Below the pieces are notes generated by a model. That model had not been told where the DNA came from. It saw nothing but the letters and a program-made list of their open reading frames with translations, and searched no databases. A DNA stretch of 64,000 bases, taken from positions 806,001-870,000 of the forward strand of contig JAVRDV010000016.1 in NCBI GenBank assembly GCA_033439255.1. The letters are read 5' to 3'. The position numbers were made by a program, and so were the translations under genes. Position 1 is the stretch's first letter; each line of letters begins with the position of its first letter. This DNA comes from Hericium rajendrae. Its lineage: Eukaryota; Basidiomycota; Agaricomycetes; Russulales; Hericiaceae. Positions 7,031 to 27,500 of the stretch are shown here, piece after piece.

Positions 7031-7055
7031 CATCAGAAAAATGTGTAAGTGGTAC

Positions 7056-7260
7056 ATAGCTCTATAAAGTCTATATAGATTTCATAGTTCCATAGCACTG
7101 CCCTTTTCTCTATAGCCAGCATAGCTAAAGGGGAGTGCTATGTAGTGCTATGGAGCTGAAGGGTGATGCTATGAAGTGCTATGATAGCTATGATAGCTAA
7201 CTATGCAGCTATGATAATATGACTAGCTATGAAAGCTATAAGTGTCTATTAAAGCTATAA
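7056..7260. repeat. (C)TATAG / GCTATGATAG array, left end of copy A
   Basis: Dense runs of GCTATGATAGCTATG-type words, many of them short palindromes (TAGCTA, ATAGCTAT). The same array type caps every TIR end found in A-D. Confidence 0.8.
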
Positions 7261-7740
7261 GGCTTATGTGTCTTATATATCTTATATTCAATATGTGTCT
7301 TACATATCCTACATTTAATATGTGTCTCACATATTCTATATTCAATATATGTCTCATATATCTTATATTTAATATGTAGACCTAATGTATATATTAAAGT
7401 AATAAAATCTATTGGAACTATAAATCTTTTCAACAGTCATATCAGAATTAGTAACATATAATCCCACAAACATAAACTATTTCAATGCATCAAGATTATA
7501 TTGATATTATAAATACTACTAACTAAAAAAGTAAAAATATAAGTAAGATAAAGATAAGATAAGATATAAAGATAAGATAAGTAATAAAAGATAAGATAAG
7601 TAGTAAAAGATAAGAAAACATTAGTCTTCGAAGATAAAGATAACACATAAAAACTTACCAAAGAAACAAAAAGCAAAGTCTAAAAGACAACTTAAAAGAC
7701 ATTAGTATTAGTATGAGCAATAAGAGATCAACAACAAAAG
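7261..7740 (-). ncRNA. Copy A spliced AT-rich transcript region with a U-rich mini-exon
   Basis: Read on the minus strand, a good donor (AAG|GTAACC) lies just downstream of the promoter-proximal exon. After a TACTAAT branch site and TTTTAG acceptor comes a 21-nt block ACTTTGCTTTTTGTTTCTTTG followed directly by another donor GTAAGT. The arrangement matches the mini-exons in B, C and D. There is no open frame, so I infer a spliced non-coding RNA. Transcription is not shown by sequence alone. Confidence 0.4.
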
Positions 7741-7903
7741 GTTACCTTAAAGACAACGAGCAAGAAACAATGACGAGCAAGTAAGAGATGACGACGAGTA
7801 AGTAAAGAATAACGACGAGCAAGCAAAGGATGTCGACGAAGGCGTCGACGTGGCAAGAGACGGTGGGGGTTAAAGAGCAAGAGGCAACGCGCGTCGCGCG
7901 AGC

Positions 7904-7912
7904 CTTATATAC
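7904..7912 (-). promoter_or_regulatory. TATA box of copy A (minus strand)
   Basis: GTATATAAG on the minus strand sits just downstream of an inverted repeat, CGAATCCCGG...CCGGGATTCG (7912-7937). It is followed by GCTCGCGCGACGCGCGTT, which recurs after the TATA boxes of B and C. The conserved placement supports a real Pol II core promoter. Confidence 0.6.
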
Positions 7913-8344
7913 GAATCCCGGGCGGAGCCGGGATTCGTAGTTGCCGGGCGCTTGCCGAGCGTCGCGTCGAGACTGGGCGCCAGACTTCACTAAATGGACT
8001 TGGCTCCCTGTGAGCTTCTTGTATAGTAGATACTTATCATGCTCATTCGTTCGAATTGTATATACAGTTTATAGTCATACTGTTTTTTTCTAAATTATTG
8101 CGATTTTCCTTGATTTGTAGTGGCTCGAAGAACGTAGCTTCGCTCGTTCGGTGGCTGAAGCACCGAAACGCGCGTCGAAGCTTGTCTGTCTCGTTGTCTC
8201 TACCACCTCCGCTCTCCACTCTCCTCCCTCCACCCTCCTCCTCTGCCTCTGACTCGTCGAACCGCATGCCGGAGGGATTCAGTAGGATGCAGAGGGCCTC
8301 GAATGTGAGTAAAAAAATCTTTTATTCCGTTGATTCGTGCTAAT

Positions 8345-8380
8345 GTCGAGAGTATCGCTCGAACGAGCGATACTCTCGAC
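8345..8380 (+). repeat. Hairpin of copy A, 17-bp perfect arms
   Basis: GTCGAGAGTATCGCTCG and its exact reverse complement are separated by two bases. It lies about 40 nt after a donor-like GTGAGTAAAA (8306) and just after a GTGCTAATG branch-like site, the same order as in B, C and D. Confidence 0.9.
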
Positions 8381-8389
8381 CTCTTTCGT

Positions 8390-9112
8390 CCTCCCGCGCC
8401 CTCATCCCCTCTCGCCTCCGACTGCCGCCCATCCCATATCATCCTGCCCTTCACCGACCTCGCCGCCACGCCGCCACGCTGCCACGCCGCCACGTCACTA
8501 GCCCCCAGTGCGCCGCCTCCAACGTCCACGATCAGCGGAGTGCGCCCGGTCGTCCGCGACCCGGGACGGGCATGCCAGCGCACGCACGTCGCGCATGGCC
8601 CTGTCCGTCGTCGCGACGTCTACGCCATCGCGCCTCGCGTGCACGCCTACCGCATTGCGCACGGGCCCGCGATAGCCCGAGGACTCGTGTACGGGCTCGC
8701 GGTAGCCCGACGTTTCGTGCCCGGCCCCGACGTTTCGTGCCCGGCCCCTGCGCCTCATGCACGGGCCCGCCGCCCTCGACCTTCGCCCACGCCCTCCCGG
8801 CGCCTCGCGTTTCCTGCGTGCAGGCTACCGCGTCACGCACGAACCCGCGGCCGCCCGCCGCCTCGCGCACGGGCCTGCCGCCCCCGACGCCTCACGCACG
8901 CCCTCCGCGTCTCGCGTACAGGCTGCTGCCTCAAGCACGAGCCCGTTGCGCGCCTCGCATCTCCGCACGCAGGCATGACGCGTCGCACACGAGCCCGCGG
9001 TGGCCCGTATCTCGCGCACGGGCCCTGCGCCTCGCGTAAAGGCCTGCCGCCTCGCGCGTACGGACCCTGTGCCCCACGCCTCTTGCGCGCCTGTCTGCCG
9101 CATCGCGCACGG
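8390..9112. repeat. GC-rich arm of copy A, proximal part
   Basis: Degenerate repetition of GCGCACGGGCC(C/T)GC-type words gives long but low-complexity open frames (Ala, Arg, Pro, His) on both strands. I see no gene. The arm resumes at 12169 after the LTR insertion. Confidence 0.7.
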
Positions 9113-9264
9113 TGGAGTGGCCCAAGGGCAGGAGCTGAGCCCAAGGATGATGATAGCAGGATGCCGACTACATACAGGAGGCAGACTCTATCTAAGTGGA
9201 TGCTGACTAAGCCTCGGCATCCTCCGAACCTCTGGATGCAGGGAGCCTCCGGCTCCCTAGTCCA
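9113..9264 (-). repeat. 3' LTR (152 bp) of the non-autonomous element
   Basis: Identical by eye to 12013-12164. It begins and ends with the TG...CA dinucleotides in the minus orientation and is preceded by ACGG. Confidence 0.9.
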
Positions 9265-9288
9265 GGTGCCCCCCTCAAAAAAAAGGCG
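9265..9288 (-). other. Polypurine tract of the non-autonomous element
   Basis: On the minus strand this reads CGCCTTTTTTTTGAGGGGGGCACC immediately before the 3' LTR, the TTGAGGGGGG form common in copia-like elements. Confidence 0.75.
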
Positions 9289-9311
9289 GCGTCCGCGTCG
9301 CTGGTGAACAA

Positions 9312-11702
9312 CTAAGAACCTGAACTATGAACCCAACCCAAACCTCGAAGAACCCGACTCAACTCCTGAAGACGAGGATCACCCTGCCAGTCCAAAGGCG
9401 AGGCATCAAGCTTGGCCGAATGCGAAACCGGTGGTGAGGATGAGACAATGACCGATGGTCGGTCCACGCGAAGACCAGCGGGATGTCGACGTGTGATGAT
9501 AGGCATGGAAGTGGGAATAAATGGTCGAGGTGGGTGGTGTGAATGGCAAGTAGGCCAGGCTTGAGATCGCCGTGCGCGCCGCTTTAGGGAATCGAACGGC
9601 CGCGCGGAGCTGGACCGAAGAATAGAAAAATCGCGAGGCGGGGGAGAAATTAATGGAGCTGTGCAGGAAATGGGGAGCAAAGAAGCTTCATCTGCCCAGG
9701 AAAAGTGCTGGCTATCATTATTTGACATGGAAAAATCATTAGGAGAAGTCACAAATGAGTCGAAAGGCATATTGACAGTGCCAACGGGTGGTGAAACGAT
9801 TGTACAATGTTGGGTATTGGCATGTTGTGCGATAGCAGGTGGGACCGTTTGCGTCGTAGAGTCGATGCGGGTAGGCAATGGGGTATGGTCCGTCTGAACG
9901 GTGGCGACAGCGCGCGGAATTCGGCTCACCTCGAGTCGATACTGCTCGTGTCCGTCGTAGATACCGTCCTTCTTTCCGTCTTTATACCCCTCCTCTCGTC
10001 CTTCTTTCGTTCCTGACTTCCATCCCGCCTCCATCCCGTCCAGGAAACCAACCTGTTTCCCCTTCTTCAATCCGGCAGCCTCGCCCCTCGCGATCGCTTT
10101 CGCGAGGATGTCAGTGAGGAGACCGGGTTCGATCTCCTGCACGATCCTGGCATAGGCGGGCGCAGAGGAGTGCGGCGTGTCGGTCTGCGTGCTGGCTTGG
10201 ACACGCGGTTGCGGGGAGTACGAGTCGTCGGCCGGTGATAATGGGGCAACGGGTGGGGGTGGGTCTTCGGCTTGAACGCCGGTGTCTGCGTGCGCGGTCT
10301 CGCGCGTGGGGGTGAGGTCGTCGGTTTGGGCGGCTGCGTTGACGTGTGAGGTCGCGGGGACCATGTCGATGGGAATGGGTAGTGGTAAGTCGGCACGCGA
10401 AGGTGAATCCGCGGGGGCATCGGCTTGCACGCCGATGCAGGCACGCAGGGTAGGCGTATGTGGGTCGGACTGGACACCGGTGTCGACACGCGGAGTCGCG
10501 GGGTCGATGCGCGGAGTCGTGTTGCATGCGGAGGTGGGCGGGGAGAGTGTCGGGGCGCGGTCATCCGTCTGGACGTCGGCACTGACGTGCGAGGTTGCGG
10601 GGACCGTGTCGAGGAGAATGGGCAGTGGCGAGTCGATACGCGAAGGAGATGGGAGCGGCGGGGAGTGCGGACATGGGGCGTTGTCCGTCGGATCGTGCGC
10701 GTCGACGCGGGGGTTCACGGTGCCCGTGTCGATGGAACGGGGGTGCGGAAGGGTAGCGTCGTCCGCCTGGACGGTTGCGTCGATGCGAGGTATCGTACTC
10801 ACCTCTGTACGTGCGACCTCAAGCCCTTCCCGATAGCCATCCCACCGTCCCTGCTCATAACCATCCTTCCAAGCCTGCTCCCGCTGGCGTACTTCCACCC
10901 TTGCTTCCATCTGTGCAATCCTCCTCCCTTCCTCTAAGCCCTCTTTCCACCTTCGTTCCTGGTTCGCCTCCAAAGCCTTCAATCTGAACTCTCGCCGCAC
11001 CTCGATTCGCGTTTGGCGTTGCGCGTCCTCAATGATGTTCTCCAGAAGATCTTCGTCGATCTCTTCGATCGAAGTGGCGGGACAGGTGCGCGGTGCGAGC
11101 GCGTCGAATTCATGGCCAAAATCCTCGGCGCGACAAAAAAACTGCGTGAGGCACGTGAAGAAGACGGTCGGGGGGCCTGCGCGATCGACAGCAGTCGCGA
11201 GATCCGCGGCTGCGTGGATGGATAACGCGGGGAACGGGGCGCGTAGTGCGCTGAGCGTGTCTGCGTGGTTGCTGATATGCGGTTGCTGTGGGGAGTTGGC
11301 GGATACGCCGCTCGACGTGCTGGTTGGCGTGGTCAACGCGGGTGGTGGGTCCTCGGACTCGGGACACGGGTCGGACGCGCGGCGCTCGTGCATCTGCGGC
11401 GTTGCAATGGCAACGAGTGTCGTTGCGTGTGCTTCGGCGGTTGCTGACTCGAGAACGAGCGAGGCGCTGACGGTGGGCTGCGCGGGGGCTGCTGCACGAG
11501 GCGCGCGAGTCGCGTCTGCCTCGTGGCTAACGCGCGTGTGCTGCGTGTTCGTGGGGGAATCCCTCACGGCTGGTGCTGGTGGCGTGTTGACGAGGGCGGC
11601 GCGCGTGTCGGATGGGGCTGCGGGGCTCGTGTTGGGAGCTAGTGTTGGTGCTGGTGCTGCTGTTGCTGCAGCTCGGCGCGCGGCTGAGCGTTTCTTACCC
11701 AT
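9312..11702 (-). CDS. 796-aa protein of the non-autonomous LTR element
   Basis: The ORF starts at an ATG 310 nt from the 5' LTR and ends 47 nt before the 3' LTR, filling the element. Residues 1-200 are Ala/Pro/Thr-rich with a basic start (MGKKRSAARR). Residues 205-300 and 537-600 are charged helical stretches with G-x3-G/E periodicity (GYEQGRWDGYREGLE; EEGYKDGKKDGIYDG) that end in related IPR-x-x-ATVQ segments, suggesting an internal duplication. Between residues 311 and 617 about nine short motifs of the type VQTD, VQAD, VQSD, TQTD recur in Pro-rich spacers. Residues 705-740 are basic and the tail is DWQGDPRLQELSRVLRGLGW. No gag zinc knuckle, protease or polymerase is visible. Function unknown; a structural, gag-like or host-factor-binding role is possible. 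Confidence 0.8.
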   Translation of the reverse strand: MGKKRSAARRAAATAAPAPTLAPNTSPAAPSDTRAALVNTPPAPAVRDSPTNTQHTRVSHEADATRAPRAAAPAQPTVSASLVLESATAEAHATTLVAIATPQMHERRASDPCPESEDPPPALTTPTSTSSGVSANSPQQPHISNHADTLSALRAPFPALSIHAAADLATAVDRAGPPTVFFTCLTQFFCRAEDFGHEFDALAPRTCPATSIEEIDEDLLENIIEDAQRQTRIEVRREFRLKALEANQERRWKEGLEEGRRIAQMEARVEVRQREQAWKDGYEQGRWDGYREGLEVARTEVSTIPRIDATVQADDATLPHPRSIDTGTVNPRVDAHDPTDNAPCPHSPPLPSPSRIDSPLPILLDTVPATSHVSADVQTDDRAPTLSPPTSACNTTPRIDPATPRVDTGVQSDPHTPTLRACIGVQADAPADSPSRADLPLPIPIDMVPATSHVNAAAQTDDLTPTRETAHADTGVQAEDPPPPVAPLSPADDSYSPQPRVQASTQTDTPHSSAPAYARIVQEIEPGLLTDILAKAIARGEAAGLKKGKQVGFLDGMEAGWKSGTKEGREEGYKDGKKDGIYDGHEQYRLEVSRIPRAVATVQTDHTPLPTRIDSTTQTVPPAIAQHANTQHCTIVSPPVGTVNMPFDSFVTSPNDFSMSNNDSQHFSWADEASLLPISCTAPLISPPPRDFSILRSSSARPFDSLKRRARRSQAWPTCHSHHPPRPFIPTSMPIITRRHPAGLRVDRPSVIVSSSPPVSHSAKLDASPLDWQGDPRLQELSRVLRGLGWVHSSGS

Positions 11703-12012
11703 ATCGGGTAATTGCGCGAACGGTGTTGAACGCGGGTGCGAGTATTAGACTGCGAGCACGGGGGGATCCTTGACGAGGACACGAGGACACGAGAATACGA
11801 GAACACGAGAAACACGGGACACGGGATAGACTTGGGCACTTGAACGGACGAGAAACGCGTGCGACACGGGGCGCGAGGATGGGACACGAGGCGCGTGAAA
11901 ACGAGACGAAAAAATCCGCGAAAAAGCAGAAAAAAGCCAGAAAAAGCCAGAAAAGACAGAGATGACTCAACCCAAAGCTGAAGTGGGTCGAATCACACTC
12001 TCATCACCAAGA
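11703..12012 (-). other. 5' leader of the non-autonomous element with GAGNACAC microrepeat
   Basis: The leader between 5' LTR and ORF holds the primer-binding site next to the LTR (about 11986-12010) and, at 11770-11835, a run of ACGAGGACACGAGAATACGAG-type repeats. Confidence 0.6.
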
Positions 12013-12164
12013 TGGAGTGGCCCAAGGGCAGGAGCTGAGCCCAAGGATGATGATAGCAGGATGCCGACTACATACAGGAGGCAGACTCTATCTAAGTGGA
12101 TGCTGACTAAGCCTCGGCATCCTCCGAACCTCTGGATGCAGGGAGCCTCCGGCTCCCTAGTCCA
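12013..12164 (-). repeat. 5' LTR (152 bp) of the non-autonomous element
   Basis: Identical by eye to 9113-9264. It is followed on the plus strand by ACGG, the second copy of the target duplication. Confidence 0.9.
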
Positions 12165-12168
12165 ACGG

Positions 12169-12801
12169 GCCCGCTGCGGTCCAGCGCCTCGTGCACGTCC
12201 CGCCGTGCCTCGCGTACGGCCCTCCCGTCTCGCACGCGCACGGCCCTCCCGTCTCGCACGCGCACGGCCCTCCTGTCTCGCATGCGCACGGCTCTCCCGT
12301 CTCGCACATGCAGGCCTGCCGCGCCTCGTGTGTGTGCGCGTCGTGTCGCGTACGGGCCGGCCAGTGTGCGCACTCCCGTGTACGGGCCCCGGGCCCGCGA
12401 CGGCCTCCTGCGCCGTGGATGCATGCCCGCATTGGTCCTAATTATTTATTTACTTCTAATGTAGTAGAATTAGCTGTTGTTTATTATTTCTGAGCCCATA
12501 ATTTAAATATCTTGAACCTAGACACTTGGCTTAAGATGCTCTTGCCTTAATATATTTTGGGGTTCTAGGTATGGTATGATAGGAATCATAGCACTGATAG
12601 CAACCCTATGATGTTATATAGCTAGCATAGCTGTCACTCAAAACTACATAGCTCTATATACCCTTCACCAACAGCTATAGAATTTATGATAGATCTTATA
12701 GAGCTATATAGCTGTGCTGCCAAAATACATAGAGTGCATAGCACTATCATAGGAGCCATATCATTGGCTGGAAGCTATGTAGAAAACTGATTTTTCTGAT
12801 G
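12169..12801. repeat. Distal GC arm, AT segment and (C)TATAG array, right end of copy A
   Basis: GC-rich words (GCACGGCCCTCCCGTCTC repeated) continue to about 12435. An AT-rich stretch shared with copy B follows (GGGGTTCTAGGTATGGTATG; inverse in B near 17300), then the (C)TATAG array (12580-12782) and the TIR ending CTGATTTTTCTGATG at 12801. Confidence 0.7.
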
Positions 12802-12951
12802 TTATGCTATCTTTGTTCCTGTCGTGTCTCTGGAAACTGCTCGTCGTCGGGTCCGGGCATTGGCCTTGTCCGTACTTTATAAGAAGTGTAAGTGCATACT
12901 CAATATTGACACCAACATATCCCCGGACATCTCGTGATCTAAATCCTTATT
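12802..12951 (+). other. Continuation of the coding remnant interrupted by copy A, then gene upstream region
   Basis: The first 90 nt keep an open hydrophobic frame that joins in phase with the frame ending at 7030. The rest is the presumed 5' region of the alpha-kinase gene. Confidence 0.35.
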
Positions 12952-15900
12952 ATGCGATACTGTCGAGCTTGTTCCGGTGGTTTCCCGCACCTGCCTAATG
13001 ATCAAGAAAACTGTGGACGCTGCGAAGACCGCCTTGCCGGACGTAATGCGGACTTTGCTCAATGTACACAGTGCGGGAAGACATATCAATTTCTACAAAG
13101 TGCAATATGTGGCCCATGTCAAAGTTTTGGTACGTTACTGGGATCTCATATGCTCAGAAGCATTAATATGTGTATTTTTTGTTTCTTGCAGACAACGGAG
13201 TTGGACGGGCAGTACGTGAGGTGCAGGACACTCCTCCGAACCCGCGTGGCCATGTACATCATGCTCCTCATCGTCCGGCAGCACAGATGGTGCCTGCCTC
13301 TCAGGTATTTCAAAATCTTTGCTTATTTCTCGTTTCTCTTTCTTACAAATTCAATAGCAGAATGTTAGTAACGCCTCATTCCAACACGAACCTTTCTCTG
13401 TGTCGCAACAGTGAATCGCTGACATGGAGGAATCGTATAATCGTGTCATCAACGGCCTCAGTGGCAACGCTTCCAATCTTGCGCGCCCTAAAATCAAGGT
13501 GTCCAACCATATCAATATGCCTCCACCCACAGTTCCAGCGTCTGGGCCCGTATCAAAGATCACAATCCGGGTCAGTGTCTGCTGATTTCTGCTCTCCACC
13601 GCTCATCAGAATAAATCTAGTGTTCGACCTTTGCGAATCGCAACTCTAAACAGAAGCCATCATTTTCTGGGTTCCATCTTGAATGCAAAATGAGCGACTC
13701 CTGGGCCAGCGTCTTACACATGATTTGCAACTCTTTGGACTACAACTATGTTCAGGAATACGGAGCTCGCATCTTGTCAATGTAAGTGTCCGAGTCTTGA
13801 CATACCATGTGTTTTTATGCTAATGCTGGCTTAGTGATCGATTCGAAGTCCTCTACGCAAAGTCCAATACTTCAATTCCCTCCAATCAGTCACAAGGGAC
13901 ACTCGGCGACCTCTGGCGGTATAGCCTTGGTACAGGACAACCGGGATTTCTTGTGTCAGAGGCACACCGCAAGGGGAAACTGCTTGATGTCAAGATAATT
14001 GTCGACTATCCTCCCAAGGTAATAGTGACTGTGGCCCGAGATCACAGGACTTCGACTCAAAAGACTTGCAGGATGACGAGGACGAAGAGGACTTGAAAAC
14101 GGTCACGATGAAGACAACAGCTCTTTCGAAGAAGCGCAAGAACAATCATAGTGATGATAAGTCCATCGTACCAAGCAACAAAAGTAAGTAATATCATTAC
14201 CACATTTTTAATTCGGAAAAGCTGCTGACGTTTTTTAGGACTCCAAACTAGTACACCAGGAACACTTCACACTCGGATATACGAAACAGCACTGACATAC
14301 GAAGATAAGCTAGAGGACACCTCCGTACAATTCCACGTTCAATCATATCTCCCGGTCATTCCCGCACATGGTCAGCCATATTTCCAGACTGACAGACGTC
14401 CTTTTCTTGTCACTGTGAGCACAAACGAGCTCGCTCATGGTGCCACAAAGAAAATGTTCAAAGTAATTGTCTCATCAATTTGCTAAGCTAGTGATCATCG
14501 CTAAGCCCATCTCCGATTGCAGTTGATTAGAATGGATGCTCCCTATGAAACCTATGCTGCCAAATGCTTTTACAATGTTGGCAAAGGTGTCGACAAAGTC
14601 ACAGCAGAGGAGAATTTGGCATGCCTGTGTCAAGAGGCTGTAATACATACAATTGCATCGCAGGTCGGTACAGCTTTCCAAGAGGCACTCACGCCGTTCC
14701 TCAGTGAAGTCTCATGCTGTGGTATGTCTCACCTGGTGTGCACGTTGTACAGATCCTAACTTTGAGCACCTTTCCACAGACTTTGCTTTTGCCGAAATCA
14801 TGCTGCTCCAGGTCGTTGATGGTCCTGACAAAGGGCTAGCTTGGATTGTGGATCCTATGCGGTCATCGTACCAGGTTCACAAGTACTCTGGAACTATCCA
14901 AGCCGGAACTGGCCTTGACATCTACGGAAAGACTTGTGATGCACTGGCTCACTTCTCTCTCGTACATAGCGGCAACACCCTTGTGCTTGCCGACATTCAA
15001 GGCAGGTCGATCCAAATGATTTAATGCTAAACTCAATTCCTTTTTTTTGGTTGAATTTTCAGGGATCCTCGAGCAACGTTTTGTTGACGGTGTACGGACG
15101 ACAGATATTCTTTATCTGCTCGATATCATGATGCACAGGTAATCACAGTTTTTAGCTTCACATTTCATGAGTGCTAAGTGGTCCTTCAGCGTTAATAAAT
15201 CAGCAGGGCTGGGTGACCATGGTCTGAATGGCATTGCTCTGTTCCGAGAGCAACATGTTTGCAACCCAATTTGCAGAAAATTGGATCTCAGCGATAGAAA
15301 AGCTGCCCCAGCAGTCATCAATAACCACGCTCCGAGTTCGTCAATAGGATCGCAAGGGAAAGCAACGCTGAGGCGTAAGGTGTGAACAGACTTATCTGAA
15401 TGTGGGTATATTCTGACACTGGCATATCTCAGCCTCGACGGATTGAATCTGCCACTGGGGCACCGTCTGAGAGTCTGGACGGTGATGACATTGCGACTCA
15501 ATCATCACATTCAATGGGTAGGTGTGATGTTCTTCCGGTCAAAGACTTGTGCTAATCGGACTCTGTTTCATCTTCAGATGACCATGTCAACAGACAGCTT
15601 CTTCAGTCCTCCTGAAGTCAAAGTTCGAACATTGCATGGACAGAGTGATCCCAAGAATGCATCGGAGATTGGAGTCGGATATTCAGCTTCTGATGTTATT
15701 CACTCCATTTACATTGTGGATAATGCACTTGGCATGGTAGGACCATACACTACGTTTCCGGTTTGTTCTTGTTCTACGTGTCTGTCACATCATGCTAATT
15801 TTTTCAATCAGATGAAGCGATTGGGCAAGCCGACTGATCGAACCACTGACTTAGTCGTGTGGAAGGCTCCAGACGACTATCAGGGCATTCCGTCTCGATT

Positions 15901-16667
15901 GATGATCAATGATATCATCCGTTTTACTAAACTTGAATATCAAATTGATTTATTCCGTGACCGTGCAGCCCAGAAGGACATTACAATTGCTAGTAAGGCA
16001 TATTCTCCTATTCAGATGCACATTCCTTACGCTTTTCATAGAGTTTGATATTATCGCGTTGAAGCTGGAAGACGAGATTCAAGCCAGAACGGAAGATTGC
16101 CGGCAATGGATATCCTCATCGTGGATACCTCCCGTTGAGTCGCTCCTCAAATTCAACAGCGTGTCAAAGTTCAATGTCGAGAACCACGAAGCAAGTCCCG
16201 AGCGTCCATTTGAGGCGACGCTCGCTACGTTAGCACACTTTGTCTATGAGACAGATAGTGTTGAGCAGATGTGTACCGACTTTGAGTGTGAGTCTCTAGG
16301 ATTTAATGCGTGGACACGTCTCTTACTCTTTTCATTCTGCCACCTAGATCTGGAAAGACCTCTGGACCCGATGGAGAACGGGCAGAAAACAGCATATACG
16401 ATTGTATATTTCAAGTCGCATTTGTACGTAGATGCAGTGACAACTTTTCGGCTGACATGCTGACATGCCAGATTTTCACTTAGCACAAGTGGACCGGAGG
16501 AAGGCGGTGCATCACTGCTTGATCGAGCATGTGCTGAACACAGATGTAGCGATATTTGTAGAGCTATGGGTCTAGAAATGGAGGAGATGGCAGGACAATG
16601 GGTTCGAGGAAGAGTTCCACTAATCCTTTGGCCATACCTTACAGTAGTTCGTAGACAGATGCCATAG
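12952..16667 (+). pseudogene. Alpha-kinase family protein, tandem-domain, with a premature stop
   Basis: Many exons with good GT-AG sites encode an atypical alpha-kinase. Exon 1 (12952-13129) has a zinc-ribbon-like N-terminus (CRACSGGF, CGRCEDR, CTQCGKTY, CGPC) typical of fungal members. Further exons run 13192-13304, 13361-13570, 13654-13781, 13835-14018, 14048-14183, 14239-14462, 14523-14721, 14780-15001, 15063-15138, 15190-15379 and on. Domain 1 (about 14780-15300) shows VHKYSG, LADIQG and the closing GDHG...H-x-CN-x-x-C zinc site. The exon ending at 15001 needs a GC-AG intron to keep frame. A second, weaker domain (about 15600-16620) keeps LATLAHFVYE and EHRCSDICRAMGL but lacks LQG, so is probably inactive. 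An in-frame TGA at 13412-13414, best read as mutated CGA, interrupts it unless an unseen intron removes it. Confidence 0.72.
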
Positions 16668-17449: not shown

Positions 17450-18570
17450 GTGATGACTAGTCACACATTGTCGAAGTTGAAGGCGGGGCGAATGTAGCTG
17501 GGCCATGTGCTGATGTGTGCACATAGGCAGGGCCGACACGCACACGCACACCGGCTACACACATGACAAAGAGACGGCGGCCATGCGCGCATTGCGAAGG
17601 CCGTGCGCAAGGCGACAGGGCCCTATACCAGACGGCGTGGCCGTACGCGAGATGGCGGGACCGTGCGCTACGTGCGCGGCAGCGAGTGTATTGCGGGGGG
17701 TTGTACACGGGCCTTGCGCCTACGAGAAGGCCGTGTGGGAGACGACAGGGCCCTGCACCCAACGGTGCGCCCTTGCGGAGTCGGCAGGGCTGTACATGGG
17801 CATGCGCGCGTAGTCGGGGTATGCTCGCATGTGCGGCAGTCAGGGGCATGCATTGGCAAACGTGCATATGCTGCCGGCCACGTGTGAGGTGTGCGGGTTG
17901 CACGCACACGGGCTGCGGCCATGCCTAGGTCGTTGAGTCCGTGCAGGTTGGGCTGGGGGTCTCACGACATGCGTACCGTATGCGCGCAGGGCGGCGGGGC
18001 TGTGCGCCAGCATGCGCACGTACCCAGCAGCCCCGCATGCAGGTGTTCGTGGCCTTGCGCTGGTGTGACGTCGGAGCCGTGCGCGCATGGGCATGCAGGG
18101 AGCAGGCGGCGCAGTACGTGGTCGCATGACGCATTGTCGAGTCTCGTTGCCATAGCAACGAGACTCAGCGTTCGCCTTGCTGGCCATCCACGGGACGTGG
18201 CCACGCTCTTGAGGCCGCATGTGCGAGTGCTGAGAGTGCCCGCGCGTGGGTGTTGGGGGTGACCGGGCATGGTCTTGGCCTAGCGCGAGCCGATGGGAAC
18301 CCCCACGCGTTGTCACAGCTCTGTGCCGTGGGACGAGGCCCGTTGATACCACAAGGGATGACGTACCGGGATGTCGGCGCACCCGCGGGCTGTGGCAGAC
18401 AGACGAGGGTCCGTGGCGAGGCCATGGAATGACATGTCGGCGGCACAGGAGTGAGTTGTCGAAGGTGCAGGGAGGGAGAAGGCATGGGGAGGGAAAAGGT
18501 GCGGACGGTGCGCGAGAGGTGAGATGGGATGTCGAAGGGCACGCAGGGGGTCGTGGAGTATCGAAGAACT
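17450..18570. repeat. GC-rich arm of copy B
   Basis: Degenerate GGCCGTGCGC / GACAGGGCCCTGCACC words over 1.1 kb. Long frames on both strands are low-complexity translations. Includes a perfect CTCGTTGC..GCAACGAG inverted repeat near 18138-18166. Confidence 0.65.
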
Positions 18571-18579: not shown

Positions 18580-18611
18580 GAGAGTCTCGCTCGATAATGA
18601 GCGAGACTCTC
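18580..18611 (-). repeat. Hairpin of copy B, with a compensatory base-pair change
   Basis: GAGAGTCTCGCTC and GAGCGAGACTCTC, 13-bp perfect arms, 6-nt loop. Relative to A, C and D the A-T pair at arm position 7 is a C-G pair here, so both strands changed together. On the minus strand it follows a GACTAAT branch-like site. Confidence 0.88.
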
Positions 18612-19084
18612 AAGATTAGTCGATTACTGTACAACGAGATAAAAGCTTTATTTATGCATCTGGAGCCCTCTAGCCCTTACAAACCCATCGTATCCTTCAT
18701 GTTGAGGAGGAGCAACAAATAGTGAAGAGGGAAGGGAAGAGAGGAAGGGGAGAGTGAGAGGAGCGTGCTCACTGCCGGAGGACCGAGAGCAACAAGTCGA
18801 ACGAATTATCGACGCGCGTTTGGCGGCTACATTAGTGAACGCGCGAGTTCGAGTGTGTCTCGACTTAGTAAACCAAATAAAATCGAAACAATTCTGAAAA
18901 AAAGCATATATTCAGAGTATATCTATATCGCTCGATCGAATGAGACACATGTCTAACTAGCATACTATAAGCTACTGGAATGCGGAACGAAGTTAATGAG
19001 ATCTGGCACTTGGCGTCTGACACGGTGCCCGGGCCGCGTCCCGGCAGCCACATTTGGGGCTCCGCCGGGCAAACCCGCGCTCAC

Positions 19085-19092
19085 CTATATAA
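19085..19092 (+). promoter_or_regulatory. TATA box of copy B
   Basis: CTATATAA is followed by CCCTCGCACGACGCGCGTTCTCTCTCTC and AACCCCCACCATC, a layout shared with the promoters of A, C and D (GC block, TATA, CGCGCG block, pyrimidine run). Confidence 0.65.
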
Positions 19093-19099
19093 CCCTCGC

Positions 19100-19660
19100 A
19101 CGACGCGCGTTCTCTCTCTCTCTTCAACCCCCACCATCCCTCCTCATTCCGCGCAAGCTTCTCTATTGGCTAAGACTTTCGGTAAGTCTCTTCATATTTC
19201 TTTTGTAGTCTATGCTTATGCCTTGCTTACTTTGTTTTAGTCTTATGGGCTGCAATTTCGCTTTTATCTTATTTTGGTAAGTCTTCGTCTGTTATAGTCT
19301 TCTAAACTTATTTTTATAGCTAACTATTCATGTTTTCTAATAGATTGTATTTTGCTTTTTGTTTATTTGTAAGTAGTTGTTTGCTTCATGATTTGTTATC
19401 TTTGTAGGTATTTGTAAGGTTTTTAATGTTTAGATTGTAATCAATGTTGATGTTGTAGTATATATTTATCATATGTTATATTATATTAGATAATAAATAT
19501 AATGCTTTTGAATTTATCTAAACTTTTGTTTTTATAATTAATAATGAGTCAGGATTTCAAGGTTGTTGCATAGCTTGTCTAGTCTTGATTTTAAATAAAT
19601 TTGCATATTGCTGATAGATTTTGTATCTTACATAGATGTACTAAATCTATCTATCAATCA
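19100..19660 (+). ncRNA. Copy B spliced transcript with U-rich mini-exons
   Basis: After the promoter a first exon ends CTTTCG|GTAAGT (19181). An intron ends TTTTAG at 19240. A 36-nt exon (19241-19276) with core TTTCGCTTTT ends in TTTG|GTAAGT. A second intron ends CTAATAG (19343) before a short exon with TTTTGCTTTTTG. No reading frame spans these exons, so a non-coding RNA is inferred from splice-site order and from conservation across the four copies. Confidence 0.45.
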
Positions 19661-20147
19661 TAGCATATGCAACTAACATAGCTCTTATAGGTATGATAGC
19701 TAGGTACCATATGATAGCTTCATAGGTAGCTATGATAGCTATGATAGCACTCCATAGCATCACCCTTGAGCTTCATAGCACTATATAGCATCTCTCTTTG
19801 GCTATGTGGGCTATACAATAAAGGGCGATACTATGAAGCTAGGAGATCTATGTAGACTAGATAGAGCTATGTATCACTGGCAAATTTTTCAGATGGTCAT
19901 GCCAGTTCAGCAGGGTGCGCAGATGGTGAGGGCTAAGAGTGGACATGGTATTGCTTTATGGAAGTAGATAGATGCATTCCCATCAATGCGGGGATGTGCA
20001 CATTAACGTGATCACGTCGTGAGCATCGCAACGTGCTCTTACCATGGACTCGAGCGACATCCGCTGACCCCCCACCTTCACGGCATGCAGAGCTTATCAC
20101 CCCCATCATTTCCCCGTCGCATCGCCGCCTATTGTCTGACACTGTGC

Positions 20148-20655
20148 AGAGTTCTTAAGAGCCGTGAGTTGACCGAAGACCAGCACTTCAAAGCCGCCGT
20201 CGTCGGCTGGTGTATCGAATTTGTGTGTCCTGTCTTCTCCTCTACCTCTTATTGCATTTCTTTGCTCAGCTGCAAGGGTACTTCTTGGTGACCTCATGGA
20301 CTCACCCGTGAGTCATGGTCAGCCATGCTGGTACCGCATCGAAAGCATCGGCAATATTGCAGTCAACGATGGCATGACTTGAATCGTACCTCCTCACAGT
20401 CATCAAGAAGTGCTTCTGTGCTCAGCGGTACTAATTGCACTTCCTCGAGCTCTACCACGACATCAGGTACAAGACAGAGATGGGGCAGCTGGTCAACCTG
20501 ATCACCATGCCCGAGGACAAAGTTGACCTCTCCAAGTTCTCGCCAAGTTCTCGCTCAACCACCACTGTGTTCTACTTGTTCTATCTCCCAGTCGCGTTCA
20601 CGATGCACATGTACCTTGTGCCCGAAGCCGCGAGCATCATGCCTGGGAAGCCGCT
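20148..20655 (+). pseudogene. ERG20: Farnesyl diphosphate synthase pseudogene fragment
   Basis: FPPS makes C15 farnesyl diphosphate for sterols and prenylation. Recognisable pieces are RELTEDQHFKAAVVGWCIE, then after an intron (from about 20222 to CTGCAAGG near 20270) DLMDSPVSHGQPCWYR, IGNIAVNDGM, LELYHDIRYKTEMGQL, EDKVDLSKFS and FYLFYLPVAF. The first Asp-rich motif is damaged: the expected DDxxD has lost one Asp codon and the frame shifts at this point. The frame also shifts after NDGM. The N-terminal third and everything after the YLPVA region, including the second DDxxD, are absent. This is a non-functional partial copy; an intact gene is presumably elsewhere. Confidence 0.82.
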
Positions 20656-21449
20656 ACCTCCTGACGGATTGCATATTACTGTCAGTCTGACCCGCTGGGT
20701 ATTGAAGCACCAGGCTTGTACAAGCTTTTCTATGACTACATGCTGGGAGATGGACGATTCAAGATGTTTTTGGCTTTTATAGGGGCCCGTCATGACCATG
20801 CAGATGCTCGTTCTGGAGATGTCTTGACACTCAGTACTCAGCACGCAGTCTCATTTGACTTCCCTGGATACCTTCACGACTATGATGCTTACGGCGACTT
20901 GGCTAAGCACCCGCTGCCATCTCAGACAAGACCACTTCATGAACGCAAATTTTCAAGCCCGTCGGCTCGTAATAAGGCTTGAAATTTTGTATAGATATGG
21001 GACTCTGTCTAAAGTAACTGATTCTGAAGAGATAACCCAGTTCTCGTATGATTTGCATCTACAATTGAACGATGTCCGCAGCGCAGTCGAAGGCCGTACA
21101 TGAGCTCGACTCGAGCCGCGGCGGGCGCTCGTTCACACCTAACCCTACTTGAACTGGAGGAGCAGTAAGCCTTGTCACACACCTCCAAGATCTCGACAGT
21201 CGGCATGTAGCAAGGCGTGAAAATCTCCATGAAGGTTTAATACGGTGGTATAAACCCATTCGTAAGATCAAATGCTACTTTTCGAGTGGTTTGAGCAAGG
21301 AATAGGCACGTCACAGCGTGTGACTGAAAGCGTGCTTTGTGACTGCATCTTATCCTGATGACAACACCTTGACAATCTTGCTAACTTTGAATCTCTTCAA
21401 ATTTCGCGTTGTATTGTCCTCGCTTTTCTCATATTAAAGTCTGGCCCGT
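20656..21449. other. Region without a supported gene
   Basis: Short plus-strand frames (for example 20716-20982) run on from the FPPS remnant but show no FPPS C-terminal motif or other recognised domain. Confidence 0.45.
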
Positions 21450-21515
21450 GTGGTAACTAATTCGAGGTTTCTCGGGTCTTTGTGTCAAAGCTCAAGGAGG
21501 CCGAGAGGTGCTGAG

Positions 21516-22067
21516 ATGAATTTTAGACTCAGAAGGGATCCGCCACCAAAGTGGCAAGAAGTTTCGGGCTGGCGGGTCTCGGCCACCCTAAGCCATACCT
21601 TGGCTATCAACCAAAAAACCATTTTTCCTGATGTCCGTGATGATGGCGCCGTCCTGTTCCCACTGTACGAACACACCACGAAGCTCAAGCCCGAGTCACA
21701 GCAGCTGCCGCCGGGCATGCTCATCGAGTTCTCCGGCGCGAGATGCCTCAAAGTGCCCCAGTTATTGCACGACATCGGCCCCGTTGCCCGCCCCATCACG
21801 AACTTCCTCTCGGTGCCACAACCGGCAGCAACGGCAGCAACGGCGACGGACATGGCGATGACAGCAGCGATGGCGACGGACACCGCAGCGATGGTGGTGG
21901 CAGCAACGGATACGGACACGAACACGAACACGGCGGCGGCGGCAGCGGCAGCAGCAGCAGCGACGGCGATGGCGGCAGTGACGGCAGCAGAAACGATGGA
22001 CGAGGCGGCAGCGACGGCGACAGCGGCAGCAGCGGACGGGGCGTCCACGTCGTCGCAAGCCGCTTGA
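21516..22067 (+). CDS. Hypothetical ORF with Ala/Thr low-complexity tail
   Basis: The frame opens before 21450 and includes an ATG at 21516. About 110 residues of normal composition (KWQEVSGWRVSATLSHTLAI, PLYEHTTKLKPESQQLPPGM) are followed from 21820 by an imperfect GGCAGCAACGGCGACGG-type repeat read as Ala/Thr/Met. The +1 frame reads the same repeat as Gly/Ser/Asp/His (GSNGSNGDGHGDDSSDGDGH), so the repeat part may be coding in either frame or not at all. No family recognised. Copy C begins 110 bp downstream. Confidence 0.3.
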   Translation: MNFRLRRDPPPKWQEVSGWRVSATLSHTLAINQKTIFPDVRDDGAVLFPLYEHTTKLKPESQQLPPGMLIEFSGARCLKVPQLLHDIGPVARPITNFLSVPQPAATAATATDMAMTAAMATDTAAMVVAATDTDTNTNTAAAAAAAAAATAMAAVTAAETMDEAAATATAAAADGASTSSQAA

Positions 22068-22679
22068 GACGTTTTGTGTCGCACGCCATGTGTCGTGCCG
22101 TCTTCACCTCAGGCCTTCGAGCTCTGATTCCGCAGGGGGGGTTCTCGCTTTATCTTGTCATCCATTCTGATTATTTCATCTGAGAAAATTCACATGGCTA
22201 TAGAGCTCTATATAGATTATATAAATGTCATAGGGCCATAGCTATGCCACCTATTCTATAGATGGCCATAGAAGGGGGTCATCTATAGAGTGCTATAGAG
22301 CTACTTAGGATAGCTATAGAGTGCTATGATAGCTATAGAGCTACAAGACATAGCTATAAAGCTATGAGAGTAGCTATGTAGAAGATGTTCACTATACACA
22401 TTATACAGAATATATTTGCTACAGATGTCATGGATGCTCTGATTGTTACAATTAGCTGAGTACTCTACATATTTTTAATAGACTACAATATTTTATTTGA
22501 AATTTATAGTCATACTAGACTTAGTATAATTCTACAGATATCTTCATATTGATAAAGTAAACCATTTATAAAGATCACACAAAAGGTAAAGGAAAGCAAG
22601 ATATTTTATTAACTAATTACAACATGATAATATACTACAACATTATATACTACAACAAAACCACTAAGACAATATAAAC

Positions 22680-22945
22680 ATTAGTCAAGACTAATATGAA
22701 ACACTACAAGACTTACCATTACTACAAAAAAGCAAAACATTCTAGAGAAAAAAGGCATTAGTATTAGAAGATAACAACAATAATCTATAAAAGCTTACCA
22801 AACTAACAAAAAAGCGAAAACAGAGACAATCTGAAAACATTAGCATAAGACATAAGAAAACTTACCTAACAAGCATACAAAGGCACTATAACAGTATGAA
22901 GGGATTAGCACAAAAGAGACTAAGACTAGAAGCTTACCTTAATAA
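22680..22945 (-). ncRNA. Copy C spliced transcript with three mini-exons
   Basis: On the minus strand, successive short exons end in GTAAG donors. One of about 20 nt is followed by an intron with ATGCTAATG and TTTTCAG. Next comes a 32-nt exon with core GTTTTCGCTTTTTTG, an intron with TACTAATG and CTCTAG, and a 25-nt exon AATGTTTTGCTTTTTTGTAGTAATG with its own GTAAGT. It is the clearest mini-exon series of the four copies. Non-coding nature is inferred. Confidence 0.45.
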
Positions 22946-23128
22946 AGATAGCAACGACGAGCAACAAACGACGACGATGAGCGAGCCAGCAACAACGACG
23001 AGCGAGCCAGCAATGACGATGAGCAAGCAAGCGGCGATGACGAGCAAGCAAGTGACGACGACAAAACGTCGACGTGGCAAGAGATGGTGGGGATTAAAGA
23101 GCAAGAGGTAACATGCGTCGCGCGAGCC

Positions 23129-23136
23129 TTATATAC
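23129..23136 (-). promoter_or_regulatory. TATA box of copy C (minus strand)
   Basis: TATATAAG on the minus strand next to the inverted repeat CGAATCCCGG...GAGATTCG and followed by GCTCGCGCGACGC, as in copy A. Confidence 0.6.
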
Positions 23137-23581
23137 GAATCCCGGGCGAAGCCGAGATTCGTGGCTGCCGAGGGTTGCCGAGCGCCACGTCAGAGACTGG
23201 GTGCCCAGATGTGCTTATGTTGCATACGATGCACATAAACTTAGAGTACATTAGATATATACCGTGCTCATTAAATACACTGCTATCATTGGTCTGTATC
23301 TGTAGTCTTTTCCTATAAATTTATGGCCTTTTATTTGATTTGTTGGGGCTCGAAAAGTTCGAACGCGTGTTCGGTGGCTGAAGTGCTAAACGCACGTCAA
23401 ACAAATAACTCGTTCGACGTTCACTCCTTTGTCCCTCAGCCTGCTCCTCGCTCCTCTAGCTTCTCTTCCTTATTTTTTTCCTTCTTCATTCATTTGGAGG
23501 ACCGGGAGGGCTTGCTAGGAAGTAATGGGGTCTTAGGTAAGTAAAATTATATTCTTATTGTGTCTTATTTGTACTAACTAA

Positions 23582-23614
23582 GAGAGTATCGCTCGGTTCT
23601 CGAGCGATACTCTC
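23582..23614 (+). repeat. Hairpin of copy C, 14-bp perfect arms
   Basis: GAGAGTATCGCTCG / CGAGCGATACTCTC with a 5-nt loop. It is preceded by a donor GTAAGTAAAA (23537) and a perfect TACTAAC branch site that ends about four bases before the stem. Confidence 0.9.
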
Positions 23615-23619
23615 GTTTC

Positions 23620-24720
23620 TGTTCGTAATCTCATCCCCAACCAGCCCCAACCCCCATGGCATGCCTCTCCCATCTCCCATGCACATTCCGCCCTCACCGC
23701 CTCTACCCCACGTCGCCGTGCGCGATCCTCAACGCCGCGCGTCATGCCTTCGCCCATGGCCTCCTCTCCCCATGACCCTGCGCACGGTCCCGTCATGTGC
23801 GTGCCATGTTACGCACGCCCTCGACTCCCCTTTTGCACGCACGGCCATGCCACGCATGCCTGACATGACGTGTCGTCTGTGCGTTGTCAACATCGTGCGG
23901 GCACGGGCCACGTCACCACCCGTGCCCTCGACCTCCATACGCGCGCACAGTAGAGTCCCGTACAGGGCTCGAACGCCCCCACACTGGTGCCCTATGCACA
24001 TGCTGTGCACCGCCTCACGCCCCACGCCCTGCCCGCAACGCTCGCATAATGCCCCGCAACTGCGCATGTGCAAATCCCTAGCGTGTCCCGCCCCGCCCAC
24101 GTGCACGACATCCTATCCACGTCCGCAGGCTTACGACGACACTGTGTGTGCCCGCTCTCCTGCCATGCTCCGCACGCACAGCTCCATGTGCAGGCACAGC
24201 AACCCATGCACGCGCACGCTCATACCCCATATGCACGACGCCCTGCGCGCGTGTCAATGCCGGACCGCGTGCACAACGCATGGCATGCACGCACAAGGCC
24301 CGCATACGCGTGCAAGCCCAATCCGTGCCGAATGCCTCACGTTCAGCCACAATGCCAAGGGCACGTGCTCAATGCCCCGCACGCATGTCAAACACGGCCC
24401 GCCTAACAGGTCGCGCCTGCCCGACAGCGCCGCGTGTCTGCACGTCTCATCCCCACATGCTCACGCGACGCATCACATCCATGTCCGACATCGGGCACTC
24501 GTGCACCACCCTGCACGCTCCGCCTTCCTGCGCGCCACGCCCCGCCTTCCCGCGCGCCACGCCCCGCCTTCCCGTGTGCCACGCCCCGCCTACATGCGCC
24601 TCCTGCTGACGTGCGTCATGCCCGGCCCTCATGCGCGGCATCCCATCAACGTGTGCGATCCCCGCACATTCTGCGCCTGCACGCTCAATAGGCACCGGCA
24701 TGGGCGCTCAATAGGCGCGG
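23620..24720. repeat. GC-rich arm of copy C
   Basis: About 1.1 kb of degenerate GCACGCCC / CATGCGC words, including a threefold CGCGCCACGCCCCGCCTTCC repeat near 24530-24590. The 362-codon frame across it is low-complexity (His, Arg, Pro, Ala, Cys) and not accepted as a gene. Confidence 0.65.
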
Positions 24721-26214
24721 GTCATCTGAGAAAAAGGATTTTTATATAGCAGCAAGTGCTGTTATGGGTGCTATCAGTGAGCTATGGGGGCTATAAAGTT
24801 GAACTATTCAGCTATGTGGAGCTATGGGGCCTATGATAGCCTCCATAACATGAAGTGTTAAATACATAGGGTGACATAGCCTTTATAATAAGGGGTGTCA
24901 CATACATAGGACTATCAGACTTACTTAGCCAGACTATAGGTACTATGGCCACTCCAGCCACTATCATAACCCAGATAGGCACATAAGACATTGAATCAAA
25001 CTCATATTGTATTCAAAGGTAACTATGACAAAGGGACCACGAAAACTAAGAGACTAGTGAGGAAAGGTGCTGAGTGGACCTCATGCCCTCACATACATTG
25101 CCCGTCCCCATCTATGTACGTGCGTGCGTGCGCTGGTGACACCACACGATCACGCACGCATCGTCTGGGATGCTGCGGGCGGGCGATCGCGTACACGGGC
25201 AGCGGGCGGGGCAGGGGGCGCAGATCGAGTGTGGCCGCGCACGAGCTTGCGCGGCCGTGTGCGGCACGTTGTGGCCGTACATGGGGCCATGCGTGAGCTG
25301 GCCAGTCGCGCATGGCCGCGTGCGAGTTGGCGTGGTCATACGTGGCTTTGTACTGGCGCGCGCGAGCTTGCGCAGCTGTGCGCGGAGTGAGGTGGCCACG
25401 GGAGGTCATGTGAGGGGCCGTGCGCGAGCTGGCACGGTCGCGCAGGGCCGTGTGCATGCGCGGGCGAAGCGGTCGTGCAGAGGCCGCATGCGGGGCGAGA
25501 TGCTGGCGCACGGGGTGTGCGGGTCATGCGTGGCAGCGGGAGGCCGACATGACCATGGCGGCGCAGTGCTGACATGGCCGTGGCATCGCAGGGCTGACAT
25601 GGCCGTGCCCGTGCTCGTATGCGGGAGTTGGCGCGGATGCGCCCACGTCGTCCGAGCATGCGAGGGTGTACGCGCGTAGTCGGGGCCTCCTGCAGGCGTG
25701 CGGCCGCGCGTGGTTGTGTGTGCGCTCGTGGAGCCCCGGACTCGCGTGCGAGAGCGCACGCACAGGTTGTCACGGGCATGCGCACACGGGCTGGGACTTG
25801 GACCCTCGTGCAGGCCTTCGCACCGTGCGTGGCCCTGCATCATCGCGCGCTGGCAAGGCCGCGGGCGGACGTGCATGGCCGTGCGTGCGCAGTCATGCGT
25901 CGCGGCCGCAAATGCGTTGTCGATGGTGCGGGGGTGCTCGTACACGGAGCTGGTGAGATAGAATGTAGAGGGCGCACCTGGGTCGTTGAGGAGTTGCGGA
26001 GCATGCGGGAGGCCGGATGAGTGCGACGACACGGATATGGATGCCGTCATTGGCGGGTGGGGAAACGGGAGAGTCGTGGTGGCGGCGCATTCGAGAAGTA
26101 GATGGGGCGCTGGTGACGTGGCAGATGCGGCGGGATGTGGGAACGTCGGCGGGAGTGTGGAGAGGTCGACGGAGATGGCGTCGACGGCGACGAGGGTGGA
26201 GGAACGAGATAAAC

Positions 26215-26246
26215 GAGAGTATCGCTCAAGAACGAGCGATACTCTC
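26215..26246 (-). repeat. Hairpin of copy D, 13-bp perfect arms
   Basis: GAGAGTATCGCTC / GAGCGATACTCTC with a 6-nt loop. On the minus strand it follows a GTAAGTAAAA donor (26294) and a CACTGATAAAG branch-like site. Confidence 0.9.
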
Positions 26247-26690
26247 TTTATCAGTGCGAATAAACATGTTCCGAGAGTTGTTTTTACTTACCTTGAATCC
26301 CCCTAAGCCCTGACAGATCCTTCTGCATTCGAATCGACGAGTTAAAGCGAAAAAAGAGACGGAGGGAGGGACAAGGAACAAGGAGTAAGGAAGGACGACA
26401 GTCAAAGACGAACTTCGACGCGACTTCGGTGCTTCAGCCACCGAACGCGCGCGATTCGAATGCTTCAAACTTAGTAAATCAAATAAAATCAAATAAAACC
26501 AGAAAAAAAGCGTACAGCTAAAGTCCAGCTATTCAATCGTATTTTATGAGCTACATCTCTATCTAAGTTCCAGTAAGCTACTGGGTTGCTCAATGAAATT
26601 AGTGCAATCTGGCACTTAGCCTCTGACGTGAGTGCTCGGCACCGCCCGGCCCGGTCTCGGCAGCCACATTTGGCGCTCCGCTCGCCACGT

Positions 26691-26699
26691 CTATATAAG
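26691..26699 (+). promoter_or_regulatory. TATA box of copy D
   Basis: CTATATAAG lies between a GC block (GGCGCTCCGCTCGCCACGT) and CCTGCGCGAGGC plus a CT run, as in B. Confidence 0.65.
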
Positions 26700-26724
26700 G
26701 CCTGCGCGAGGCACTGTCTCTCTC

Positions 26725-27050
26725 TCTTCCTTACCACTACCATCTTCCGTCTTTCGTCATTCGCTCCTCTTTTGCTTTGACCTTCTTATGTTCGGTAGGT
26801 TGTTATGTTGTTCTCTTGACTACTAACCCTAATGTTCTTTGTAGACTCAATATTTTCGCTTTTTCTTTTCTTTGGTATGTCTTATATTCTTTTATATATA
26901 TCTCTTTTCTCTTATACTAATTTATTAATCTATGTTTAGATCATATTTTCGCTTTTTCTTATCTTTGAGGTAAGTCTTATCTTATCTTATCTTTTATCTT
27001 ATCTTATGTGTTTTATCTTATCTAGCTTGAGTTGATTATAAGTTGTTATG
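26725..27050 (+). ncRNA. Copy D spliced transcript with two 30-nt mini-exons
   Basis: First exon ends TTCG|GTAGGT (26794). Intron with TACTAAC ends TTTGTAG (26844). A 30-nt exon (26845-26874) contains TATTTTCGCTTTTTCTTT and ends TTTG|GTATGT. The next intron ends GTTTAG (26939). A second 30-nt exon (26940-26969) contains ATTTTCGCTTTTTCTTA and ends TTTGAG|GTAAGT. The near-identical mini-exons suggest internal duplication of an exon-intron unit. Confidence 0.5.
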
Positions 27051-27500
27051 TATTATAGTTTTGTAGTAATTGGTTCCTTGTATAAATATGTTGCAATGGA
27101 ATATTGTTTATAATATAATGCTTCCAAAATTTCGATCTTTTGAAGACTTTGAATATAATAAGATAGACTTATATTATATTTATATTTTATATATATATTG
27201 ATAGTACTTCTGAATGACATATTGAACAGAGATAACATAGAATAGATAGAAGTCTGAATAACTAGATATAATATGATGGTGAGAATATATCACATAGCTA
27301 ACATAGCTCTTATAGCTATCTTATACTATAGTAGCTATGATAGCTTATGTTCTATACTATGATAGCTATGATAGCTACCATAGCTACTGCCTTATCCTAT
27401 GGTAGCTATGTAGCCCTATGTAGATTATCTTGCTACTATGAGATGGCTATGAAGAAAAGGGGACTGCTATGGCCCTATTAGAGCTATGTAGACTACATAG

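Follow-up and report, generated by a model that had tools for sequence, protein, structure and literature searches.

The DNA transposons closest to those considered here are the PlavakaB families, which have ends of the form CATCA..TGATG and target-site duplications of 2 or 3 bp (PMC12730594). The same source gives TGT..ACA as the ends of PlavakaA, CAC..GTG ends and 3-bp duplications for EnSpm, and an 8-bp duplication for Zisupton (KDZ). The MarorhAT and MarorTcMar derivatives of mushrooms are non-coding elements of 597–1,120 bp, bounded by terminal inverted repeats (TIRs) and moved in trans, and they belong to hAT or Mariner (PMC9674265). The subject of this study is four elements, A to D, in a stretch of 64,000 nt from Hericium rajendrae (contig JAVRDV010000016.1, positions 806,001–870,000; genome 46.8 Mb in 19 contigs), which I will refer to as the window. 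They belong to a large family of non-autonomous TIR DNA transposons. A first-pass annotation made from the letters of the window held that such elements fit no usual type, and this was too strong: the A subfamily has the ends CATCAGA..TCTGATG and 2-bp duplications, both of which fit the published PlavakaB type (CATCA subfamily). They differ from PlavakaB in that they contain no transposase, that most of the other termini start with CATCT, and that their conserved palindrome module goes unmentioned in the accessible portion of the PlavakaB account (PMC12730594). Like the mushroom derivatives they are non-coding, TIR-bounded and apparently mobilized in trans, but they are about 2.7 kb in length, duplicate 2 bp of the target and contain an internal module that is conserved. 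What appears to be new is the conserved core, and an open-access literature search, outside of which lie subscription journals and Repbase entries, turned up no account of a non-autonomous Plavaka element that carries one.

The family was recognized by its termini. The window contains the terminus CATCWGADAAAW six times, where shuffling would lead one to expect 0.14: A and B have it at either end, C and D at one end only. Genome-wide it is found in 1,172 places (581 + 591), against 49 (22 + 27) for the reversed control. The left 300 bp of A match 39 other places with at least 88% identity, a lower bound, 40 of 293 candidates having been scored, and the right 300 bp match 20 others at 93% or better and more down to 80%. 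The first 100 listed termini, which all lie on contig C1, include 21 inward-facing pairs of neighbours 2.3–3.5 kb apart; shuffling the strands of the same termini yields a mean of 7.9 such pairs and a maximum of 16. The 11 copies with both ends in the fetched loci measure 2,613–2,711 bp, except for L024, which has its own insert and reaches 5,666 bp. Copy L009 matches eight other A-type copies over the full length at 91–94%. Copies of the family in general are 2.6–3 kb long, with subterminal regions rich in CTATGATAG-like repeats. The genome-wide comparison proposed as a check on the first pass found copies with the same ends and length across the genome.

A 2-bp target-site duplication flanks 16 of the 18 copies checked at both ends, and 10 of the 11 with both ends in fetched loci. 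The 18 are the 11 paired A-type copies, L011/L061 (a single copy of 7.8 kb), L023 (representing the co-amplified L022, L023, L026 and L027), L062, L063, L065, A and B; L010, L013 and L028, with a single end within the fetched stretch, were excluded. The duplicated sequences are varied (AA, GG, TC, AG, AT, TA, TG, CA, TT, GT and AC). Two insertions have recognizable empty sites. That of L012, which breaks a Plavaka coding sequence, has flanks matching L060 at 3442–3551 and 3550–3749, an overlap of exactly 2 bp, and the same is seen in L050 (94–96% identity for L060 and L050). The flanks of L062 match L046 at 68–69% identity, again with a 2-bp overlap. From the ends, the duplications and the two empty sites it follows that this is a non-autonomous TIR transposon family, one of the two possibilities raised in the first pass. 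The other, a repeat that gives rise to structured RNA, does not compete with a transposon and may also hold, in view of a palindrome at a fixed place after motifs resembling splice signals.

The elements of the window are as follows.

7031..12801, forward strand: element A, complete, with termini CATCAGAAAAAT at 7031 (forward) and 12801 (reverse); carries a nested insert
9113..12164, reverse strand: nested insert in A of long terminal repeat (LTR) type, with identical 152-bp direct repeats (9113–9264 and 12013–12164), flanked by ACGG, antisense open reading frame of 796 aa
17070..19895, reverse strand: element B, complete, inverted with respect to A, 2-bp duplication GT
22177..24722, forward strand: element C, with its left terminus but, at the junction with D, no right one
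24723..27513, reverse strand: element D, terminus at 24723, family homology ending at 27513

The claim of four copies bounded by termini thus stands for A and B at both ends, not for the right end of C, which abuts the terminus of D exactly, nor for the far end of D, where no recognizable terminus was found at the point (27513) at which homology to the family stops. A and B do share both TIRs: the right end of A matches the left end of B at 83% and the left end of A matches the right end of B at 80%, as inverted copies of one plan. Element A is not a longer version of the element. Its span of 5.8 kb is due to the 3.05-kb LTR-type insert at 9113–12164 in its GC-rich half and nothing else, and without it about 2.7 kb remain. 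The sole Pfam match of the insert's 796-aa antisense frame is to Yae1_N, below the cut-off. A relative of the insert (58–65% identity) lies inside L024 at a different position, so the GC-rich half has been hit at least twice.

All four copies have the gradient from AT-rich to GC-rich noted at first reading. The 1-kb GC-rich half keeps its composition and not its sequence between subfamilies. Repeat-induced point mutation or deamination was rejected as the source of the AT-rich half, since the CpG observed/expected ratio there is at least 1.0 in 14 of 15 copies (0.42 in L065e). A coding GC-rich half was likewise rejected: the 362-aa frame of C runs into D, the 325-aa frame of A runs into the insert, and those of B and D are shorter and unshared. 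A second palindrome, of the GAGTCTCGTTGC type, lies in the GC-rich half of B (18139–18166), and a differing one is found in L065 at a comparable position (element position 1741–1766).

In a non-autonomous transposon one would expect the ends alone to be retained, but in this family the feature most sharply conserved between subfamilies is an internal module resembling splice signals and a hairpin. In a full alignment of seven diverged representatives, the conserved blocks are the first ~240 bp, 571–630, 751–930 (which holds a leftward TATATAA), 1021–1110, 1261–1310 (the palindrome) and the last ~230 bp, with the GC-rich half at background. When eight representatives are anchored on the palindrome, mean pairwise identity is 0.41 before the core, 0.90 in CTAAY, 0.37 in the three-base spacer, 0.91 in each arm, and 0.42 after. 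Nine representatives, used for motif positions and AG counts, agree with few gaps in the order of the core: a motif like a 5' splice site, then CTAAY, three bases free to vary and a palindrome of 13 + 13. A distant relative found via the palindrome, L066, has in common with the others only a block of ~50 bp around it and GC-rich repeat stretches (801 bases fetched). The central palindrome, described as a hairpin in the first pass, is present in all four window copies, where the motifs are placed as follows.

7905..7911, reverse strand: TATATAA, putative leftward promoter of A
8305..8310, forward strand: GTGAGT of A, resembling a 5' splice site, 43 nt before the palindrome
8340..8344, forward strand: CTAAT of A, resembling a branch point, 3 bases before the palindrome
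8348..8377, forward strand: central palindrome of A
8499..8501, forward strand: first AG (TAG) after the palindrome of A, candidate 3' splice site
18580..18611, reverse strand: central palindrome of B, where arm position 7 has C-G instead of A-T
18615..18619, reverse strand: CTAAT of B, resembling a branch point, with no GTRAGT within 90 nt upstream
19086..19092, forward strand: TATATAA, putative leftward promoter of B
23129..23135, reverse strand: TATATAA, putative leftward promoter of C
23537..23542, forward strand: GTAAGT of C, resembling a 5' splice site
23574..23578, forward strand: CTAAC of C, resembling a branch point
23582..23614, forward strand: central palindrome of C
26215..26246, reverse strand: central palindrome of D
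26250..26254, reverse strand: CTGAT of D, resembling a branch point
26286..26291, reverse strand: GTAAGT of D, resembling a 5' splice site
26692..26698, forward strand: TATATAA, putative leftward promoter of D

The spacing within the core is maintained throughout the genome. Perfect palindromes with loops of 0–10 occur 144 times, and there are 158 places with CTAAY, any three bases and then the palindrome, including 45 of the 50 listed palindrome places; GGTAAGT stands 41–48 nt upstream of the palindrome in all 81 places found by a pattern that allowed 39–69. The control gave 0 in each case. The motif GTRAGT is present in eight of the nine representatives, and TATATAA lies 433–481 bp before the palindrome in all eight that reach that far, the L066 stretch being too short to include the position. 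Of the paired promoters proposed earlier, the TATATAA of the putative leftward one is conserved, and a rightward one was not established. The several tiny exons proposed for the AT-rich half are not supported: GTAAGT-like hexamers, at one to three per copy, do not exceed dinucleotide shuffles, which have means of 0.4–1.2 and maxima of 2–5. One such site falls in a conserved block.

Two further properties concern the arms and what follows them. At arm position 7, A-T is replaced in 17 further places by C-G (10) or G-C (7), and the change is compensated in all 17. No unmatched change at that position with the rest of the arms perfect was found genome-wide. The 17 places probably go back to a small number of events that subfamilies have inherited. 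RNA folding z-scores lie between −4.3 and −6.2 for L066 and the four copies of the window, and Rfam finds no match above the gathering score in 7000–27600. Over the first 110 nt past the palindrome there are 5 AGs, as compared to 19.6 ± 3.8 when the sequence is shuffled (lowest count 7 among 5,000 shuffles), and neither GA (28) nor CT (104, with 107 expected) is depleted. The first AG encountered is YAG, with C or T before it, in eight of eight cases where it is seen, and L066 has no AG in the 368 nt available after its palindrome.

Which enzyme moves the family may be judged from ends and duplications. The ends CATCA..TGATG are found in A and in all 11 A-type copies with paired ends (CATCAG in 10, CATCAA in L025); B, C, D and L065 start with CATCT, one letter off the PlavakaB ends. 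Plavaka genes are abundant in the genome, with at least 132 matches (123 of 166 candidates scored); KDZ genes are numerous too, and such a complement suggests a fungus of the mushroom type. A tblastn search with eight stretches, five of Plavaka and three of KDZ, found no Plavaka (PF18759) or KDZ transposase inside the window elements or the copies read, so the family, placed here by its ends and duplication alone, can at most be a non-autonomous member of PlavakaB. The enzyme that moves it in trans is most likely of PlavakaB type. Four fetched copies (L012, L016, L062 and L065) lie in or beside Plavaka genes.

The best explanation, which I regard as probable if well short of secure, is that a non-autonomous TIR family moved by PlavakaB carries a transcription module, a 5' splice site, CTAAY and a hairpin that governs a 3' splice site. 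The transposase would cut and paste the elements by way of their CATCWGA ends and CTATGATAG-rich subterminal repeats. Copies would keep an internal transcription module, probably bidirectional, as the conserved leftward TATA box and the rightward splice motifs suggest. In the rightward pre-RNA a 5' splice site would be followed by CTAAY as branch point and, after three more bases, by a hairpin of 13 or more bp that may hide nearby AGs, in which case either the YAG past the AG-poor stretch must serve or splicing is blocked. A 5' splice site, CTAAY, a hairpin, an AG-poor, pyrimidine-rich stretch and YAG are, in that order, what would be expected of an intron whose 3' splice site lies far downstream. 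Only tentatively can it be suggested that the palindrome is a transposon-borne RNA splicing device, deciding whether and where a 3' splice site is used and so controlling expression from a rightward promoter (in an autonomous source, expression of the transposase). A precedent may be the intron of yeast SUS1, which has an RNA hairpin in the region between branch site and 3' splice site, and a change in its stability alters splicing (PMC4691836). The location is similar, but the SUS1 hairpin is described there as weak, with the branch site near its loop (PMC4691836), while the stem considered here is perfect, 13–17 bp long, placed after the branch-point motif, and borne by a transposon in many copies.

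A number of observations weigh against this explanation. With respect to the mover, 79 of the first 100 listed termini start with CATCT rather than CATCA, and two of the 18 copies, A (flanks TG/TT) and L024, lack a duplication. No autonomous partner was found: none of 15 Plavaka loci, among the 132 matches, is enclosed by these ends within flanks of 1.5 kb (7 kb in one case), which may fall short of the element ends, and none of eight longer inward terminus pairs on C1 overlaps KDZ, Plavaka or Transposase_21 among the matches listed (for Plavaka, those from the scored candidates). The search for longer relatives with the same TIRs and a transposase, by termini, subterminal motifs, similarity around Plavaka and KDZ loci, Transposase_21 and longer terminus pairs, thus came up empty among the loci and C1 pairs examined. 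With respect to the module, B is an exception without the 5' splice-site motif, 9 of the 25 copies read with a located palindrome have at least one pair that is not Watson-Crick, and no palindrome was found in L010. Variation in the arms of twelve close copies amounts to 6/312, as compared to 76/3904 upstream and 164/4827 downstream. Farther along the GC-rich half AG (181) and GA (182) are equally low against 303.5 expected, so the loss specific to AG is limited to the first 110 nt, and the representatives are related, so the shuffle statistics overstate their independence. Base pairing itself fits an RNA hairpin and a DNA palindrome alike. In the first 100 of the 158 places, single-sided changes at arm position 10 number four that keep a wobble pair and three that break the pair, and therefore do not favour RNA over DNA. 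Template switching may also keep the arms alike.

Since arms drift within a subfamily, the constraint would have to be placed in the source lineage: likeliest, copies drift after insertion and constraint acts in the lineage that founds new subfamilies. (The splice motifs of the twelve close copies show 0/132 changes with about 2.6 expected, too few to tell.) The same drift, at the rate of the upstream surroundings within a subfamily yet with conservation between subfamilies, is what would be seen if the module were a relic of the promoter, first exons and first intron of an autonomous ancestor, with no present role and carried because copies descend from constrained autonomous elements. That no open frame is common to the four window copies also accords with a relic. 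Among the loci read, though, no autonomous element has the module, and the non-coding copies have themselves multiplied to about 95% identity. I give this possibility very nearly an even chance, and it is compatible with the splicing-hairpin explanation.

It is unlikely, though deserving of consideration, that the mover is instead a different enzyme making 2-bp duplications, of CACTA/EnSpm type or from an undescribed CMCT lineage. The preponderance of CATCT termini would suit such an enzyme, as would the 31 matches to Transposase_21 in the genome and the failure to find a Plavaka gene inside these ends among the loci and copies read. Against it, the CAC..GTG ends and 3-bp duplications that PMC12730594 gives for EnSpm are both absent from the family, which does not match EnSpm/CACTA. 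PlavakaA is excluded by termini that are CATC..GATG rather than TGT..ACA, KDZ (Zisupton) by a duplication of 2 rather than 8 bp, and ESTA or PHISTA, with a TA target duplication, by duplications of which TA is just one of eleven. MITEs (miniature inverted-repeat transposable elements) are usually under ~800 bp, and copies of 2.6–3 kb are too long for that class. At L054 one family end lies 1.2 kb from a Plavaka domain and is oriented away from it, and the L064-type Plavaka, which has TGTCTGA repeats in its flank, looks like another type.

Returning to the palindrome and its possible service in RNA, I consider it distinctly improbable that it is a double-stranded DNA site, dimer-binding or cruciform, for a transposase or host factor, with arms kept identical by template-switch correction and splice motifs that are incidental. 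Co-varying arms with free loops, the near equality of wobble-keeping and pair-breaking changes, and the fact that only 288 of the 414 arm occurrences stand in perfect pairs, the other 126 having no perfect partner within 10 bases, would all be at home with a DNA site. Such a site leaves unexplained why CTAAY stands on one side of the palindrome, three bases away, why GTRAGT keeps a near-constant distance, and why AG is depleted on one side. That the copies are alike merely through simple repeats or tandem arrays, an outcome that the first pass named as refuting its claim, has next to no prospect despite their repeat-rich subterminal regions, and is itself refuted by the full-length matches, precise ends, duplications and empty sites.

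If the hairpin does work as RNA, the family would be a case in which a transposon carries structural control of splicing, and would offer a ready series of natural variants: more than 100 copies of a splicing device, in several natural variants, within one genome. The terminus count suggests up to about 580 elements, roughly 3% of the genome, so the family matters for annotation.

Some members have composite structures. In a comparison of 11 A-type copies, L020 and L063 show a mosaic of identity to the others, near 99% at the ends, about 60% near positions 901–1000 and 1101–1200, and 96% at 1401–1500, as if modules had been exchanged between subfamilies. In L022, L023, L026, L027 and L028 a member of ~2.9 kb lies within a larger repeat, itself amplified, with 97–98% identity over up to 5.4 kb.

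Elsewhere in the window, a cysteine-rich fragment at 54052–54381, reminiscent of KDZ-associated clusters, has no significant Pfam match. LTR retrotransposon reading frames occupy 34314–41035, and the one tested (37332–39641) has reverse-transcriptase RNase H domains. Long tandem arrays with units of 34, 42, 76 and 144 bp extend over 1006–4564, with related units flanking L024, and a shorter array, four copies of a 40-bp unit, lies at 47032–47200.

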